DNA of 64,000 nt from Georgenia muralis (GTDB lineage Bacteria > Actinomycetota > Actinomycetes > Actinomycetales > Actinomycetaceae): the NCBI RefSeq assembly GCF_003814705.1, contig NZ_RKRA01000001.1, forward strand, positions 930,001 to 994,000, written 5' to 3'. How positions within the stretch are numbered: position 1 is the stretch's first letter; every line of letters begins with the position of its first letter. This document shows positions 3,096 through 53,989 of this stretch, one piece after another. A program made the translations under genes and the position numbers. Under the pieces are notes generated by a model. It did not search any database. It was not told the origin of the DNA and worked only from the letters and a program-made list of their open reading frames with translations.

Positions 3096-4421
3096 CTACT
3101 GTACGGAACGCCGGCGCAGCGGCCTCCGCGCGGGGGCCGCGACGGCGTCGTCGCCGGGCCCGCCGTCGCCCATCTGGTCCGGACCGCGGTCCGGGTCGGT
3201 CGCCCGCCACTCCTTGAGGGCCGCCCAGGCGACGGCGGCGATCGGCACCGCGAGCAGCGCACCGATGATGCCGGAGACGATCGTCCCGGCGGTCAGGGCG
3301 AGCAGGATCGCCAGCGGGTGCAGCGCGAGGGCCTTGCCGATGACGACGGGGGCGAGGAGGTCACCCTCGAGCTGGTTCACGCCGATGACGACGGCGACGA
3401 CGATGAGCGCCGTCACCGGGCCGTTGGCGACCAGGGCGATGAGTGCGGCGAGGGTGCCGGCCAGGGTGGCGCCGATGAGCGGGATGAAGGCGCCGAGGAA
3501 CACGATGGTCGCCAGCGGCAGGGCCAGCGGGACCCCGAGGATGACCAGGGCGACGCCGATGACGACGGCGTCGACGAGCGCGACGACGGCGGTGCCACGC
3601 ACGTACCCGCCGAGGACCGTCACGGAACGCTCGCCGATCCGCCAGACGCGCGGGCGGACGTCCTCGTCGAGCGGGCGCAGGAAGAACCCGAAGATGCCGC
3701 GGCCGTCCTTGAGGAGGAAGAAGAGGATGACGATGCCGAGCAGCGTCCCGGCCACGACCTCGATGGCGGCGGAGGCCCCGGCGATCGCCCCGCCCTGGAC
3801 GGTGTCGGAGGTGAGGAACTCGGTGAGCTGCTCCCGGGCGGCGGTGATCTGCTCCTCGCTGATCCCGAGCGGGCCGGTGGCCAGGTAGTCCTGGAGCTGG
3901 TCGAGGCCGCTCTCGGCGCCCTCGACGAGCTGGTCGGACTCGTCTCGGATCTCCCGGCCCACGAGCCACAGGATGGTCCCGAGGCCACCGAGGCCGATGA
4001 TGAGGGTGGCCCACGTGGCCAGGGCGTTGGGCCAGCCGTGGCGGCGCAGGAAGGCCACAGCCGGGCTCATGGCCGCGGCGAGGATCGTGACGATGAGGAT
4101 CGGGATGACGAGGAGCTTGAGCTCGCGCAGCCCGATGACGAGGACGGTGGCGAGGCCGAGGACGAGCAGGACCTGCGCGGCCCGGATCGCGGCCCGGCCC
4201 AGGCTGTCCTCCCAGATGCCGCGCCGGCGGCGCCGCGATCCCTGGGTGATGGCGGCGGCCGCGCCGGAGGCGGCAGTCGGGGTTGCCGCACCGGCGGGAC
4301 CGCCGGGCGCCCGGGGGGCCGGAGCGCCGGGCGCCCGGGGGGCGACACCGGGCGCGGACGATGTCGAGGTGGCCGGGCTCTTCGTGGCGCCGCCGCGGGA
4401 GCGCGGTCTGCGGATCTTCAC
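3096..4421 (-). CDS. AI-2E family transporter (PerM/DUF20-type permease)
   Basis: A 441-residue polytopic membrane protein. The first 90 residues are basic, Pro/Ala-rich and partly repetitive (APGAPAPRAPGG from a local DNA duplication near 4305-4340), likely cytoplasmic. About eight hydrophobic segments follow, with the family-typical C-terminal stretch FLGAFIPLIGATLAG and a later NQLEGDLLAPVVIGKAL motif. Members were named after E. coli TqsA, but many act in other export or ion-exchange roles, so the substrate is open. The start ATG at 4421 is downstream of an unusual 19-base repeat tract (4493-4634). Confidence 0.9.
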   Translation of the reverse strand: MKIRRPRSRGGATKSPATSTSSAPGVAPRAPGAPAPRAPGGPAGAATPTAASGAAAAITQGSRRRRRGIWEDSLGRAAIRAAQVLLVLGLATVLVIGLRELKLLVIPILIVTILAAAMSPAVAFLRRHGWPNALATWATLIIGLGGLGTILWLVGREIRDESDQLVEGAESGLDQLQDYLATGPLGISEEQITAAREQLTEFLTSDTVQGGAIAGASAAIEVVAGTLLGIVILFFLLKDGRGIFGFFLRPLDEDVRPRVWRIGERSVTVLGGYVRGTAVVALVDAVVIGVALVILGVPLALPLATIVFLGAFIPLIGATLAGTLAALIALVANGPVTALIVVAVVIGVNQLEGDLLAPVVIGKALALHPLAILLALTAGTIVSGIIGALLAVPIAAVAWAALKEWRATDPDRGPDQMGDGGPGDDAVAAPARRPLRRRSVQ

Positions 4422-46412: not shown

Positions 46413-48334
46413 CCCGCACCTCCGGCGCGCCGGGCGCTCGGGCGGCCCGCCAGCGGCAGCACGATGGTGACCTCGGTGCCCTCGCCGAGGGCGCTCCGCA
46501 GCGCGATCGTGCCGCCGTGGGCCTCGACGATCTCGCGTGCGAGGTGCAGGCCCAGGCCGGTGCCGGGCACGTCACCGCGGCGCACGGCCGCGGCCCGGTA
46601 GAAGCGGGTGAACAGTCGCGCCTGGTCCTCGGGGGCGATGCCGATGCCGGTGTCGGCCACCCGGACGACCACCTCGTCGTCGACCGGCTCGGCGACGACG
46701 TCGACCCGGCCGCCCGCGCGGGAGTACTTCACCGCGTTGGACAGCACGTTGGCCACCACCTGCGCCAGGCGCAGCCGGTCGCCGTCGACGGGCAGGGGCA
46801 TCCCGTCGTGGAGCTCGACGACGACGCCGCCCGCCGTGGCGCGCGGACGGTGGTCCTCCACGGCCTCGGCGACGACGTCGCGCAGGTCGAGCGGGTCGTG
46901 GCAGATCTCGACCCGCTCGCGCACCGTCGCGGCGTCGAGCAGGGCCTCGACGATGCCCTGGATGCGTTCGGCGTTGCGCTCGGCGACGGCGAGGTGCTCG
47001 CGCACCACCGGCGGCAGGCTCGGGTCCTCGGCGGCCAGCTCGAGGTAGCCCACCACCGAGGTCAGCGGGGTGCGCACCTCGTGCGAGACGGCCGAGACGA
47101 AGTCCTCGCGCTCGGCGAGCGCGGCCATCTCCGAGGTGAGGTCCTGGTAGACCACGACGGCGCCGGCGGGCCGGCCGTCGGCCCGCTGGAGCTGGTTGGC
47201 CGAGACCCGGTAGGCCCGCCGGGCCAGGCCCGGCCCGAAGTCCCACCAGATGAGCTCGCGCTCGATGTCACGACCGCCGGCGGCCCGGGCGAGCGGGCTC
47301 TCGTCCGGGCGGAGCGGGCTCTGGCCGTCGGCGGCGTAGGTGGTGACCGGACCGCGGCGTCGGTCCGGGCTCTCCCCGCGGGCGCGGGCCCGTTCCCGGG
47401 CGTCGTCGCCCACCCGCAGCCGGCCCTGCGTGGCGGTGGTGTAGGCGCGGTTGACGAGCGTGACGCGGCCGTCGGCGTCGAGGGCGACGACGCCGACGTC
47501 GACGGTGTTGAGGATCGACTGGAGGAGCCGCTCGTTGTACCGGGCGTCGGCGAGGATCTCCTCGACGAGGGAGCTCTGCCGGGCGAGGAGGTCACGCCGC
47601 GCGGCGGAGCGGCGCTCGGCGAGGTGGACGTACAGCGCGACGGCGAGCAGGACGAGCGGGAGGATGAACAGCCGCGGGATGTCGTCGCCGTCGAAGTGGG
47701 CGGTGCCCAGCACCCGGGTGCCCCACGCCGCGAGGGTGCCGACCGCCACCGCGACCACGACGCCCGCCGCGCCGAAGACCGTGGCCATCCACAGCACGGG
47801 CAGGACCAGCAGCATGCTCACGCGGAAGCCCGACTCCACGGCCAGGCCGATCGCGAGCATGTCGAGGAGCGGGACGGCTGCCGAGAGCCAGACGGGTAGC
47901 CGGCGCCAGGGCACGAGCACCGAGAGCGCCACCGCCGAGCCGGCGACCGCGAACGCCGCGAGGAACGTGCTGTCGTCGAGCATCGTGGGCGCGTAGACGA
48001 GGACCCCGGCGAGGATCGCCAGGGTCACGCCCGTGAAGGGCAGCTGCCGGAGGAAGACGCTGAGGTGGCCCTCCCCGGCCGTCGGGACCTCCGGGCGCCG
48101 GGCAGGCGTCGCCGGCCCGCGCGGGGCGCGGCCCGGCGCGACGCCCGCCTCCGCGCCGGGCGGCGTCTCCGCGGTCGACGGTGCTTGGGTCGTGCGCGGT
48201 GCGGCCGTGTCCGCTGACGGTCCCCCCTGCGGGCCGTCATCGGCGCCGGCGGTCGTCCCGGTCCCCCCCGGGACGACCCCGTGCAAGGGCATGGCGGCCC
48301 CAGCCACCCTCACCCCCGCCGTCTGCACTCGCAC
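46409..48334 (-). CDS. PAS-containing membrane sensor histidine kinase
   Basis: Up to 641 residues. A disordered 85-residue N-terminus is followed by a membrane region (about 98-240), a coiled linker, a PAS-like domain (about 268-400), HisKA with His418 (FVSAVSHEVRTPLTSVVGYL) and HATPase_c (N-box VLSNAVKYSRAG, G1 DTGIGIA, G2 GTGLGLHLA). It lacks a receiver domain. The start is uncertain: GTG 48334, GTG 48313 (overlapping a short upstream frame) or ATG 48292. The likely partner is the response regulator at 41212; the Hpt domain at 42070 may sit between. Confidence 0.87.
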   Translation of the reverse strand: MRVQTAGVRVAGAAMPLHGVVPGGTGTTAGADDGPQGGPSADTAAPRTTQAPSTAETPPGAEAGVAPGRAPRGPATPARRPEVPTAGEGHLSVFLRQLPFTGVTLAILAGVLVYAPTMLDDSTFLAAFAVAGSAVALSVLVPWRRLPVWLSAAVPLLDMLAIGLAVESGFRVSMLLVLPVLWMATVFGAAGVVVAVAVGTLAAWGTRVLGTAHFDGDDIPRLFILPLVLLAVALYVHLAERRSAARRDLLARQSSLVEEILADARYNERLLQSILNTVDVGVVALDADGRVTLVNRAYTTATQGRLRVGDDARERARARGESPDRRRGPVTTYAADGQSPLRPDESPLARAAGGRDIERELIWWDFGPGLARRAYRVSANQLQRADGRPAGAVVVYQDLTSEMAALAEREDFVSAVSHEVRTPLTSVVGYLELAAEDPSLPPVVREHLAVAERNAERIQGIVEALLDAATVRERVEICHDPLDLRDVVAEAVEDHRPRATAGGVVVELHDGMPLPVDGDRLRLAQVVANVLSNAVKYSRAGGRVDVVAEPVDDEVVVRVADTGIGIAPEDQARLFTRFYRAAAVRRGDVPGTGLGLHLAREIVEAHGGTIALRSALGEGTEVTIVLPLAGRPSARRAGGAG

Positions 48335-50490: not shown

Positions 50491-51972
50491 ATGACCGCTC
50501 CTGCCCACCCCTCGGACCGCCCAGGCAACCGACGCCTGGCGCGGTGGGCAGGTCGCTGCCTCCTCGCGGTGGGTGGCGCTTCCGCAGGTGCGCTCCTCAC
50601 GCTCGGGCTGGCCGGCGGAGCCGCCGCGGACGAGGCGCCCGCCCAGCCGGCGGCCACCGTGCAGGACGCCGCCGCTCCGACCGGGACTGTCGAGCCCGAC
50701 GGGGCCACAGAGCCCGCCTCCGAGCCCGCACCGGCGGCCGAGCCCGCAGCCGAGCCGCAGCCTCAACCCGCGAGCGAGCCGGAGCCGGCCACCCTGGTCG
50801 AGCCAGCACCTGCACCGGAACCCGCGCCCCCGGCCCAGCCAGAGCCCGCACCCGCGACCGAGCCCGCTCCCGCGGCCGAGCGGCAGCCCGTCCCGCAGCC
50901 GGCGCCACCGGCCCAGCCAGAGCCCGCCGAGCCCGCACCCGCACCCGAGCCCACGGCCGAGCCGGCACCCGAGCCGGCACCCTCCGAGGCTGAGCCCGGA
51001 TCACCGGTCGGGGACGACTCCGCCCCCGAGCCGGCGGCGGACGAGGCCGGCACTGCCGCGGAGCCGCCGAGCAGTGACGCAGCACCCGGCAAGGGAACGA
51101 TCGCGTCGGTCGGTGGCAGCACAGTGGAGAAGGACGACGCGGCTACGGCCACCGTCGGGACCGCCGACAGCGAGAAGAAGGACGACCGCGACGCCGACCG
51201 CACGTACGACGACAGGGACGACGACGGTCTGCGCGCTGGCGTCGGGGTGAGCGACCAGGGCGAGGGTGACGAGCGGGACGACGACAGCAAGAAGGACGAA
51301 CGCGACGCCGACCGCGACAGCGAGGACAGCAAGAAGAACGACCGCGACAGCGAGCGCAAGAATGACGACCGCGACAGCGAGGACCGCGACACCGAGCAGA
51401 GCTCCGACGACCGGAGGGACGACCGCGGGAAGGCCGACGACCGCGACGCCCGGGAGGTCGGCCGCACCGCGGTAGCCACCGCGGCCCTCACCGTCGACCG
51501 GCCGCATCGCCACGGTCCCGACGACACGTCCGCTGTTGTCGGCTCGCCCGAGGGGCTGCCGGAGGTGCTGCCGGCCGGCGCGGACACGTTCGACCGGCAC
51601 GGTGCCGGCCTCGCCGCCGAGGCGGCCGCGACCACGGCGCACGGTCCGGTCCCCACCGAGGACGCCGCTTCTTCGACCCCGGGCACCGGTCCCGTCCCCC
51701 ACGCTCGGCCGCTGACCGGCCCGCGGAATGACGGCGACGGCGTCGCAGAGATCCAGTCCGCGCCGGCCGCACCCATCGCTGTGCCTCCTACCTCCGACGC
51801 CGAGGCCTCGGGCGGCAACGCCTCCCCGAGCCAGCGCGCCGGTGGCAGCAGCGACGCCGACGACGCGCGCGTCCATGCCCACGCCCAGGCCGAGCTCACC
51901 TGGGCCTGTGCCGTCGCACAGCGCGCGGTTCTCACCGACGTCTTCGAGGAGATCCCGGTCTCACCCGCCTGA
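50491..51972 (+). CDS. Large low-complexity secreted protein
   Basis: A 493-residue exported protein with a Sec signal (core RCLLAVGGASAGALLTLGL, cleavage after GGAAA or GGAAADEA near 43). A Pro/Ala/Glu stalk (about 45-180, repeats of EPAPEPAP/AEPA type) is followed by a charged block of Asp/Arg/Lys/Glu/Ser (about 225-330, units such as DDRDAD, KKDERDADRDSED) and a more balanced C-terminus with WACAVAQRAVLTDVFEEIP. No LPXTG or anchor is seen. The stalk suggests it spans the wall. The charged block could bind ions or polyanions; that is a guess. Confidence 0.72.
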   Translation: MTAPAHPSDRPGNRRLARWAGRCLLAVGGASAGALLTLGLAGGAAADEAPAQPAATVQDAAAPTGTVEPDGATEPASEPAPAAEPAAEPQPQPASEPEPATLVEPAPAPEPAPPAQPEPAPATEPAPAAERQPVPQPAPPAQPEPAEPAPAPEPTAEPAPEPAPSEAEPGSPVGDDSAPEPAADEAGTAAEPPSSDAAPGKGTIASVGGSTVEKDDAATATVGTADSEKKDDRDADRTYDDRDDDGLRAGVGVSDQGEGDERDDDSKKDERDADRDSEDSKKNDRDSERKNDDRDSEDRDTEQSSDDRRDDRGKADDRDAREVGRTAVATAALTVDRPHRHGPDDTSAVVGSPEGLPEVLPAGADTFDRHGAGLAAEAAATTAHGPVPTEDAASSTPGTGPVPHARPLTGPRNDGDGVAEIQSAPAAPIAVPPTSDAEASGGNASPSQRAGGSSDADDARVHAHAQAELTWACAVAQRAVLTDVFEEIPVSPA

Positions 51973-52000
51973 TGGTGACGCGCCGATCCGGCACGTCCGC

Positions 52001-52016
52001 GCGCCCTGACGGGCGC
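52001..52016 (+). other. Short hairpin between two genes
   Basis: GCGCCC (52001-52006) and GGGCGC (52011-52016) around a TGAC loop, 30 bases after the secreted-protein stop and 27 before the next start. Could be a weak terminator or mRNA-processing site. Confidence 0.35.
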
Positions 52017-52042
52017 ACCTCCATCACGCAAGGAGAGATCCC

Positions 52043-52387
52043 GTGCGCGACCACCTTTCCCGTGCGCCTGGCGCACCGAGCACCACCAGCACCGTTCGCT
52101 CTCTGATCCGAGGCGGGCTGCACGCGGCAAGAGCTGAGGACCACGCGGGAACCGAGCCCGGCGGGAGCCCGCAGCCCGGCCTCGGCGGACACGAGCGGCC
52201 GTTCGACGACCCTGTCGCGCTACCGCCCGAGGACTTCCCGGCCCACCGGCCGCACGGCGCGCTGTGGGGGTCGCTCAACCGGACCGCGGACGCGGTCGCC
52301 CTCCGCTCGGTCGCTCGTCGGCTGGCGGCGGGCGCGAGAGATCTCGTGACCGGCAGGGCACCTCACCGAGCCTGGGTCACGGGCTGA
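52043..52387 (+). CDS. Small hypothetical protein
   Basis: A 114-residue protein. GTG 52043 has an AAGGAGAG site five bases before it, which supports the start. The sequence is His/Pro/Arg-rich with an amphipathic stretch (ADAVALRSVARRLAAGARDL) near the end. No signal peptide, no family recognised. It may be cotranscribed with the gene at 50491, and its stop lies five bases before the hairpin array. Confidence 0.55.
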   Translation: MRDHLSRAPGAPSTTSTVRSLIRGGLHAARAEDHAGTEPGGSPQPGLGGHERPFDDPVALPPEDFPAHRPHGALWGSLNRTADAVALRSVARRLAAGARDLVTGRAPHRAWVTG

Positions 52388-52391
52388 GGAC

Positions 52392-52625
52392 GTGCGCCGT
52401 CGGCGCCGGCGACGCGCAGGGGGCTCGCCATCGCCGACTCGGCGCACCAGGACCGCCCGTTCCGACAGTGGTGACGCGCAGGGGGCTCACCACCGTCGGG
52501 ACGTGATGCGGTCACCGGTCCCTGGGGCGACGGGGCGCAGGGGCCCCGTCGCCCCCGGCGACGTCCGGCCGGGGCGGTGGTGGTGGGCCGCAGGGGTGCC
52601 GACCACCACCGTCCCAGGGACCGTG
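52392..52625. ncRNA. Array of four hairpins with the conserved loop CGCAGGGG
   Basis: Hairpin 1 (52392-52447): arms GTGCGCC, GTCGGCG and GGCGA pair with TCGCC, CGCCGAC and GGCGCAC around loop CGCGCAGGGGGC. Hairpin 2 (52458-52503): CGTTCCGAC and GTGGTGA with TCACCAC and GTCGGGACG, same 12-base loop. Hairpin 3 (52524-52555): GGGGCGACGGGGC with GCCCCGTCGCCCC, loop GCAGGG. Hairpin 4 (52571-52615): GGGGCGGTGGTGGT with ACCACCACCGTCCC, loop CGCAGGGGT. A long-range helix GGTCCCTGG (52517-52525) with CCAGGGACC (52614-52622) can enclose hairpins 3 and 4. Stems differ wholly in sequence but stay paired, while the loop is kept, so selection seems to act on structure plus loop. It lies between convergent genes; strand is not fixed. 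Confidence 0.7.
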
Positions 52626-52631
52626 GCGGGA

Positions 52632-52982
52632 TCATGCCGCCCGGTGGATGACGGCCTCGAGCTCCAGGGCCGTACCGGCGGCGAGCTTCTTGATCTCCTT
52701 CAGCGCCGCACGCGCCGGCTCCACGTCCCCGTCGCCCAGCGCCGCCACGACGGGCGCCAGCCGGCCCGCGAGCGCGGCCGCACCCACCGTGGAGGAGGAC
52801 TCGGCAAGGACGTCGGCCACGGTGTGGGCGCGTGCGGTGTCGGGCTCGGCCAGCAGGCGCTCGAGCTGGGCGACCCGCACCGGGAGCCGCTCGAGGTAGT
52901 GCTGCACGACCTGGACCGCCACCCGGGGGCCGAGGCGGGCACCCAGGTCGCGGAGCACCTGAATTCGCACCAAGGCCTCCAC
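52632..52982 (-). CDS. Hpt-like four-helix protein without the phospho-His
   Basis: A 116-residue protein. VLAESSSTVGAAALAGRLAPV lines up with the Hpt core LSLHTSASMVGAAALA of the SipW fusion at 42070, but the His is Ala here. It is otherwise helical with several Leu/Val heptads. I chose GTG 52982 because GGGAGG is five bases upstream; GTG 53084 would add 34 residues but lacks such a site. It might compete with or regulate the true Hpt domain. A box cluster lies upstream. Confidence 0.62.
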   Translation of the reverse strand: MEALVRIQVLRDLGARLGPRVAVQVVQHYLERLPVRVAQLERLLAEPDTARAHTVADVLAESSSTVGAAALAGRLAPVVAALGDGDVEPARAALKEIKKLAAGTALELEAVIHRAA

Positions 52983-53051
52983 GGTCGCCTCCCTCGGCGG
53001 AGCGTCGTGGTGCAACTGTGCGACGCGATACCACGCACCGAAGGGCGCGCG

Positions 53052-53108
53052 GAGGGTGATGTCGGGATGAATCCGGGGCGCCACCCTCTCGGGCGGGAGG
53101 GTGAGGCG
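53052..53108. promoter_or_regulatory. GAGGGTGA boxes upstream of the Hpt-like gene
   Basis: GAGGGTGAT at 53052, an inverted pair CACCCTC (53082-53088) and GAGGGTG (53097-53103), and the full box GAGGGTGAGGCG (53097-53108), the reverse complement of CGCCTCACCCTC found at 8321. They lie 70-125 bases before the start at 52982. Confidence 0.5.
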
Positions 53109-53136
53109 ACGGGAGTGAAGCGGTACCGGGCGAGGT

Positions 53137-53158
53137 CGCGCCGCGACTCAGCGGCGCG
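53137..53158 (-). terminator. Perfect 8-base-pair hairpin
   Basis: CGCGCCGC (53137-53144) pairs with GCGGCGCG (53151-53158) around GACTCA. It lies 13 bases past the stop of the small frame at 53171 and probably ends that transcript. Confidence 0.55.
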
Positions 53159-53170
53159 TGCTCGCGGGCG

Positions 53171-53374
53171 TCAGCGTCGGGTGCTCAGCAGGAAGGCCGT
53201 CGCCCGGACGAGGCCGACGACGATCGCGAGGCCGATGATCTCCACGGTCGAGGACCCTGCCGTGAATTCGGGACGGCCGGGAGTAGCAACTTCGTGGGAT
53301 GCGACGCGCGGCCCGGATCGGCGCAGTCCCGCCACTGCGGTCGCGCTCGCCCCGCTCATGGTGACCGGCGTCAC
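53171..53374 (-). CDS. Possible small membrane protein
   Basis: A 67-residue frame (or 62 from ATG 53359) with one predicted transmembrane helix near the C-terminus (VEIIGLAIVVGLVRATAFLL). The ribosome site GGAGG touches GTG 53374 and is 14 bases from the ATG, so neither start is good. A terminator-like hairpin right after it is in favour of a real gene. Confidence 0.4.
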   Translation of the reverse strand: MTPVTMSGASATAVAGLRRSGPRVASHEVATPGRPEFTAGSSTVEIIGLAIVVGLVRATAFLLSTRR

Positions 53375-53951: not shown

Positions 53952-53989
53952 GTCCCGTGCGTCACCCGGGTCGTGGTGACGCACGGGAC
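53952..53989 (-). terminator. Perfect 15-base-pair hairpin after the E1 operon
   Basis: GTCCCGTGCGTCACC (53952-53966) and GGTGACGCACGGGAC (53975-53989) pair without mismatch around CGGGTCGT. It is 42 bases past the lipoyl-domain gene stop at 54031. Confidence 0.75.

Follow-up and report, generated by a model that had tools for sequence, protein, structure and literature searches.

At positions 52399-52615 of a 64-kb stretch of Georgenia muralis DNA (hereafter the window), we identified an array of four hairpins in tandem, each of which carries the 8-mer CGCAGGGG at its tip. We tentatively favour, at somewhat less than even confidence, the reading that the array is a structured 3'-boundary element, either a terminator or an RNA-end element, that was amplified by duplication and whose constant loop contacts a putative partner. 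Selection on the loop is supported by sequence comparison, we infer the 3'-boundary role from place and analogy, and we postulate a loop partner acting in trans. The hairpins (H1 to H4) and a helix that may enclose two of them are located as follows.

52399-52438, no strand assigned: hairpin H1, loop at 52415-52422, 10 of 14 inner pairs formed
52458-52503, no strand assigned: hairpin H2, loop at 52477-52484, 11 of 14 inner pairs formed
52521-52558, no strand assigned: hairpin H3, loop at 52536-52543, 13 of 14 inner pairs formed
52571-52615, no strand assigned: hairpin H4, loop at 52589-52596 plus one additional T, 13 of 14 inner pairs formed
52506-52526 with 52613-52632, no strand assigned: possible helix around H3 and H4, seen in the best fold and absent in the relative

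An earlier note on this DNA had described four tandem hairpins with long, well-paired and mutually unrelated stems and one conserved loop. The hairpins and their shared loop were borne out, since CGCAGGGG is present in all four and the folding exceeds that of shuffled sequences on both strands. For the region 52380-52632 the folding energy is -178.4 kcal/mol on the plus strand (z -5.8) and -168.2 kcal/mol on the minus strand (z -5.9), with none of 200 dinucleotide shuffles equalling either value. Loops start at 52415, 52477, 52536 and 52589, giving start-to-start spacings of 62, 59 and 53 nucleotides (nt). The stems span 14-18 positions and are well paired as the note had stated, yet imperfectly so, with 10 to 13 of the 14 inner pairs formed. 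Gaps between the core hairpins amount to 19, 17 and 12 nt; the best fold gives H1 an extra outer stem (52392-52398 with 52441-52447), and counting this stem (to 52447) the first gap is 10 nt. The loops are G-rich on the plus strand and C-rich on the minus strand, where they read CCCCUGCG with 4-5 C per loop. In the best fold the predicted six-base loop GCAGGG is displayed by H3 and H4, and a loop of this size is lacking in H1 and H2. The octamer itself shows no excess in the window (13 occurrences versus 9.64 expected, a count reached by 14 of 100 shuffles). Only two 8-mers of the window have four or more copies inside 250 nt with steps of at least 30 nt, namely CGCAGGGG and GCCGATGA, the latter repeat being situated at 3336-3562.

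The array is also carried by a relative of the same genus (genome G006), at 92% identity across the matched stretch. Between the two species, substitutions in 52388-52631 affect 0 of 32 loop, 4 of 112 stem and 14 of 100 spacer positions, stems plus loops diverging significantly less than spacers (Fisher P 0.002). As a yardstick, 120 of 891 fourfold-degenerate sites differ in five nearby genes pooled, a set that omits a 114-codon open reading frame (ORF; 7/68) and a secreted-looking protein (54/229), both described below. By this comparison stems and loops are constrained and the spacers diverge roughly as fast as fourfold sites; hence hairpin structure and loop are probably both under selection, in support of what the earlier note had argued. 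Of the four stem substitutions, those at 52407 and 52601 each restore a pair, the one at 52556 falls on a mismatch, and the one at 52579 breaks a pair on the plus strand and leaves a G-U pair on the minus strand. The relative has in addition two single-base insertions, one at the H3 loop and one close to the outer edge of H1. The proposed helix that would close H3 and H4 into one domain fared less well: its 18 pairs appear in the best fold of the window, but it is missing from the best fold of G006, and its 36 paired bases take 9 of the 18 substitutions of 52388-52631.

We then compared the four copies with one another, taking stems permuted at the same pair content as the reference. H1 and H2 have 20 of 28 stem bases in common (P 5e-5), H2 and H4 share 18 (P 0.004) and H1 and H4 share 16 (P 0.02). 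The claim of unrelated stems thus fails for these three comparisons; in the same test the likeness of H1-H3, H2-H3 and H3-H4 could not be told from chance. The excess likeness of three of the pairs gives the array the look of a tandem repeat that has diverged, most simply by drift after duplication. All 8 loop columns are the same in the four copies, as are 8 of the 28 stem columns (Fisher P 4e-4 for the difference). Covariation was assessed on H1-H4 of the two species, aligned by their loops on one 14-pair helix (8 sequences, 7 distinct). In this set 85.7% of the cells are paired, 17 cells carry two-sided changes and the covariation score is 0.463, none of 500 shuffles being as high in any of the three measures; when the partner is shifted by 1-3 columns, pairing falls to only 32-70%.

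The array occupies the junction between the following reading frames.

50491-51972, plus strand: proline/alanine- and Asp/Lys/Arg-rich protein, secreted-looking by eye, upstream of the array
52043-52387, plus strand: 114-codon ORF, coding doubtful, ending just left of the array
52632-53084, minus strand: Hpt-like gene, convergent, its stop codon bordering the array

H1 begins 12 nt beyond the end of the plus-strand ORF and H4 finishes 17 nt short of the end of the Hpt-like gene. Hairpins were surveyed in 464 kb of the same genome at score thresholds of 26 and 18, covering 40 convergent, 92 co-directional and 32 divergent junctions. The survey relied on a crude gene caller that overlooked the 114-codon ORF as well as the secreted-looking protein, leaving the array junction outside the 40 convergent ones. 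Hairpins scoring at least 26 occur at 1.16 per kb in convergent, 0.74 in co-directional and 0.35 in divergent junctions, with 0.19 overall. From this excess at convergent gene ends, we consider it likely that strong hairpins in this genome serve at 3' ends. On the plus strand, no T-tract is seen in the 8 bases following these hairpins. Thirteen convergent junctions hold such a hairpin, one apiece, and the array holds three together with H1, which scores 18. None of these 13 hairpins has the CGCAGGGG loop, and their loops differ from each other. The earlier note would have held against its own idea a pattern of model hits lying solely at 3' ends with freely varying loops; the hits do not follow it in that form, yet convergent ends are rich in strong hairpins whose loops are different.

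Under the reading of a 3'-boundary element with a contacted loop, a single hairpin would have been duplicated in tandem in an ancestor of the two species, and the hairpins on the convergent transcripts would stop RNA polymerase, protect the RNA 3' end as a cap, or both. Drift of the stems would be tolerated provided that pairing stays, while a trans-acting partner, either an RNA-binding protein or a complementary RNA, would touch the loop and hold it constant, the four sites providing avidity for this partner. The invariance of the loop despite varying stems points to its being read by some component of the cell, and plain terminators leave the constant loop unexplained. The protein-binding array put forward as an example in the earlier note is a guess. 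We regard as doubtful a stronger version, in which the array is a lineage-specific four-site element read with avidity by an undescribed RNA-binding protein or small RNA that recognizes CGCAGGGG (or CCCCUGCG) and sets the fate of both convergent transcripts. As a stranger variant, the four G-tracts of the loops might conceivably join in one quadruplex with the hairpins as connecting arms.

Several observations weigh against the reading of a 3'-boundary element with a contacted loop. Convergent junctions are hardly enriched at the threshold of 18 (3.11 hairpins per kb versus 2.92 in co-directional and 3.02 in divergent junctions and 2.37 overall). The facing ORF may be no gene, which would leave the convergent setting firm on the Hpt side only. 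No compensatory double change separates the two species, and the array was found in these two species only. In the covariation set the pairs with two-sided changes (7 of 14) are matched by 14 of 500 shuffles, and the further pair types fall below those of 499 of 500 shuffles; moreover, the covariation is partly built in because H1-H4 were picked for being hairpins, and it is weak proof alone. Finally, terminators need no constant loop.

The strongest competitor, in our view unlikely, is a plain hairpin-cluster terminator, in which the four hairpins stop convergent transcription and the shared loop is a functionless leftover of duplication. It draws on the location, on the enrichment of strong hairpins at convergent junctions and on the partly related stems, which indicate duplication. 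It has difficulty with a loop that is invariant in four copies and in both species though 20 of the 28 stem columns vary among copies, as a free loop would be expected to drift at least as fast as stems requiring paired changes; nor do the other 13 convergent junctions, with their single strong hairpins, resemble the array. Such terminators have been described: transcript ends are reported to be marked by hairpin clusters, most of which lack a U-tract (Gupta and Pal 2021, PMC8355165), a finding that also favours our 3'-boundary reading. The clusters are defined there by short hairpins with stems of 2-10 bp. The array resembles them in having several hairpins in a row near a stop codon with no requirement for a U-tract, and its distances of 12 and 17 nt lie well within the limit of about 80 bases from a stop codon. 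Against a spacing limit of less than 15 bases between neighbouring hairpins, its gaps measure 19, 17 and 12 nt, or 10, 17 and 12 nt when the outer stem of H1 is counted. In contrast to the clusters, its stems of 14-18 positions exceed the 2-10 bp range, and its loop is constant where the portion of the paper at hand describes no fixed loop. If the array were a terminator cluster only, a loop that stays constant while the stems turn over would be unpredicted by terminator models. If a partner reads the loop, the array would be a compact natural multi-site recognition array and a ready bait for a global RNA-binding regulator. The 73% GC and the gene content indicate that the DNA is probably actinobacterial; to our knowledge, Hfq and CsrA are absent from actinobacteria, and global RNA-binding regulators are poorly known there.

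A second alternative, which we consider improbable, places the function on the minus strand: an RNA corresponding to the 3' untranslated region (UTR) of the Hpt-like gene, or a small RNA (sRNA), would pair through its four C-rich CCCCUGCG loops with G-rich sites in mRNAs, in the manner of the actinobacterial 6C RNA and B11. The minus strand folds as well as the plus strand, and precedent exists in the B11 sRNA, whose two C-rich loops are described as potentially binding to a run of six G in a 5' UTR (PMC10470900). The likeness to 6C RNA and B11 (RF01066) consists of C-rich hairpin loops, if the minus strand is active. The array differs from both in its four hairpins, in its 4-5 C per loop (none of the loops has six C) and in the lack of a covariance-model match above the cut-off. 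The 6C model gave no match above its gathering score in the window, nor did it match 52000-53200 when E values as high as 5 were admitted, and its identity with the array was rejected on this ground. Above the cut-off it was likewise absent from all 9 genomes of the genus (weak matches in 3), a result of little weight as 14 controls also gave none. For Rfam as a whole, no gathering-score match was found in the window, and 52000-53200 at E up to 5 gave three weak matches to eukaryotic families. The absence of CGCAGGGG enrichment in the window also counts against the minus-strand explanation, and in its favour is a CGCAGGGG hairpin on the minus strand at the start region of a nearby histidine kinase gene.

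This last hairpin (48212-48245, minus strand) is the best non-array match with CGCAGGGG, at 21.2 bits (E 0.031). The earlier note had counted five copies, and only four were recovered: no fifth copy of equal quality was found in the window, where the best non-array matches to the hairpin model reach at most 22.4 bits versus 52-55 bits for the array. The hairpin at 48212-48245 lies where the histidine kinase ORF starts, apparently in the coding N-terminus. G006 has the same core sequence, and since the nearby alignment gaps are 3 and 6 bases long it reads as coding. With its 21 bits and its position inside this ORF, we rejected it as a fifth copy and take it as probably due to chance.

The distribution of the array among genomes was determined with whole-genome model searches, which scored a limited number of candidates per genome (at most 112 in the own genome, 31 in the family and 16 in the order), and weak matches can escape them. 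Scoring of 112 among the 9535 first-look candidates of the own genome recovered the four hairpins of the array plus a single weak hit (E 0.59). Within the genus the array is present in 2 of 9 genomes, this genome (G000) and G006, that is, in one of 8 congeners. The same two account for all four-hairpin arrays in 213 family genomes, eight others having one lower-scoring hairpin each (E at most 0.003), and in an order sample of 396 genomes without G006 the array occurs in this genome alone, with one hairpin each in three others (E at most 1e-4). Two of these three, which belong to another family (G252 and G267), contain a single 46-bit hairpin with a CGCAGGGG octaloop at one orthologous place (L418 1500-1589 and L419 1492-1546); in L418 a second strong hairpin adjoins it. 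A crude estimate, in which every genome is taken to be as GC-rich as this one, predicts tens of single CGCAGGGG hairpins by chance in 396 genomes. We rejected these two as members of the array, as they are within this expectation for GC-rich genomes. A pattern of three spaced loops was found in 5 of 396 order and 11 of 394 class genomes (own genome counted in both samples, G006 in neither), and the stem scores of the 20 pattern loci in other genomes (L392-L395, L397-L412) are at most 7 versus 9 to 13.5 in the array. The same pattern occurred in at least 120 stretches each of genome and viral contigs; five stretches inspected by eye among the best 40 by stem score were near-identical, collagen-like or CRISPR-like repeats and were discarded. 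Among the matches listed in a search of the open-licence literature, no paper on a CGCAGGGG loop or such an array was found.

It is also quite unlikely that the element acts at the DNA level, as cruciforms or single-stranded DNA hairpins with the loop read by a replication or recombination protein. Folding of 52388-52632 as single-stranded DNA is equally good (z -6.2 versus shuffles). Phage records gave no match to the array and plasmid records gave four short matches covering 12-15% of the query, on which grounds a phage or plasmid origin was rejected, and the array is not dispersed in its own genome. A functionless, decaying tandem repeat, alike in the two species through their closeness, would suit the presence of the array in just 2 of 213 family genomes, and we give it little credence, as stems and loops diverge less than spacers and fourfold sites.

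Known elements with hairpin loops or palindromes in series were considered as well. CsrA/RsmA sites carry GGA in the hairpin loop. The CGCAGGGG loop lacks GGA, and a CsrA-type site array, a system of which the earlier note knew no example in this group, was rejected. REP-type elements are palindromes present in many copies scattered between genes. The array shares with them palindromes in a row between genes, but it is confined to one locus, its stems vary and its loop is fixed; a REP-type element was rejected as the array is not dispersed. The nearest analogy for the fixed loops is provided by ANTAR target RNAs, which are dual hairpins with conserved terminal loops, the six-base loop being reported to require A1 and G4 (PMC3369931). 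Both are tandem hairpins whose loop residues matter. Unlike the targets described there, the array has the six-base loop GCAGGG, four hairpins and a location at a 3' junction. In H3 and H4 this loop has G rather than A at its first position, and H1 and H2 have no such loop, so that identity with an ANTAR target was rejected. Altogether, we classify the array as a variant of 3' hairpin clusters and assign it to none of the loop-reading families.

Regarding the flanking genes, the 114-codon ORF shows identities by codon position of 0.90/0.88/0.89 between the two species and a GC content by position of 0.79/0.65/0.81; it may not be a gene, because all three codon positions are equally conserved. 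It has a clear match in 2 of the 9 genus genomes (G000 and G006) and a weak one in G001 (E 0.29). The corresponding identities for the Hpt-like gene are 0.97, 0.97 and 0.90. Its protein matches PF01627 with E 0.011 at 16.3 bits versus a cut-off of 24.6, and a paralogue in a congener scores 27.5. The secreted-looking protein is fast-evolving (334 of 472 residues identical versus 93-97% in four neighbours) and has no Pfam match; among partial genome stretches of congeners, its ends match G000 and G006 alone. The neighbourhood also contains a GGDEF protein, the histidine kinase and a low-molecular-weight phosphatase. In the congener G008 (L061) the phosphatase and Hpt-like genes are convergent and 43 nt apart, with no hairpin scoring at least 26 between them. 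Hpt-like proteins of the congeners (L059-L065) occur in small paralogue groups, those of L061 near a signal peptidase and, as judged by eye, a response regulator. Furthermore, a hairpin with a perfectly paired stem of 15 bp and a loop of 8 bases lies at 53952-53989 of the window; the relative keeps it with one altered pair, and it is perhaps an ordinary 3'-end hairpin.
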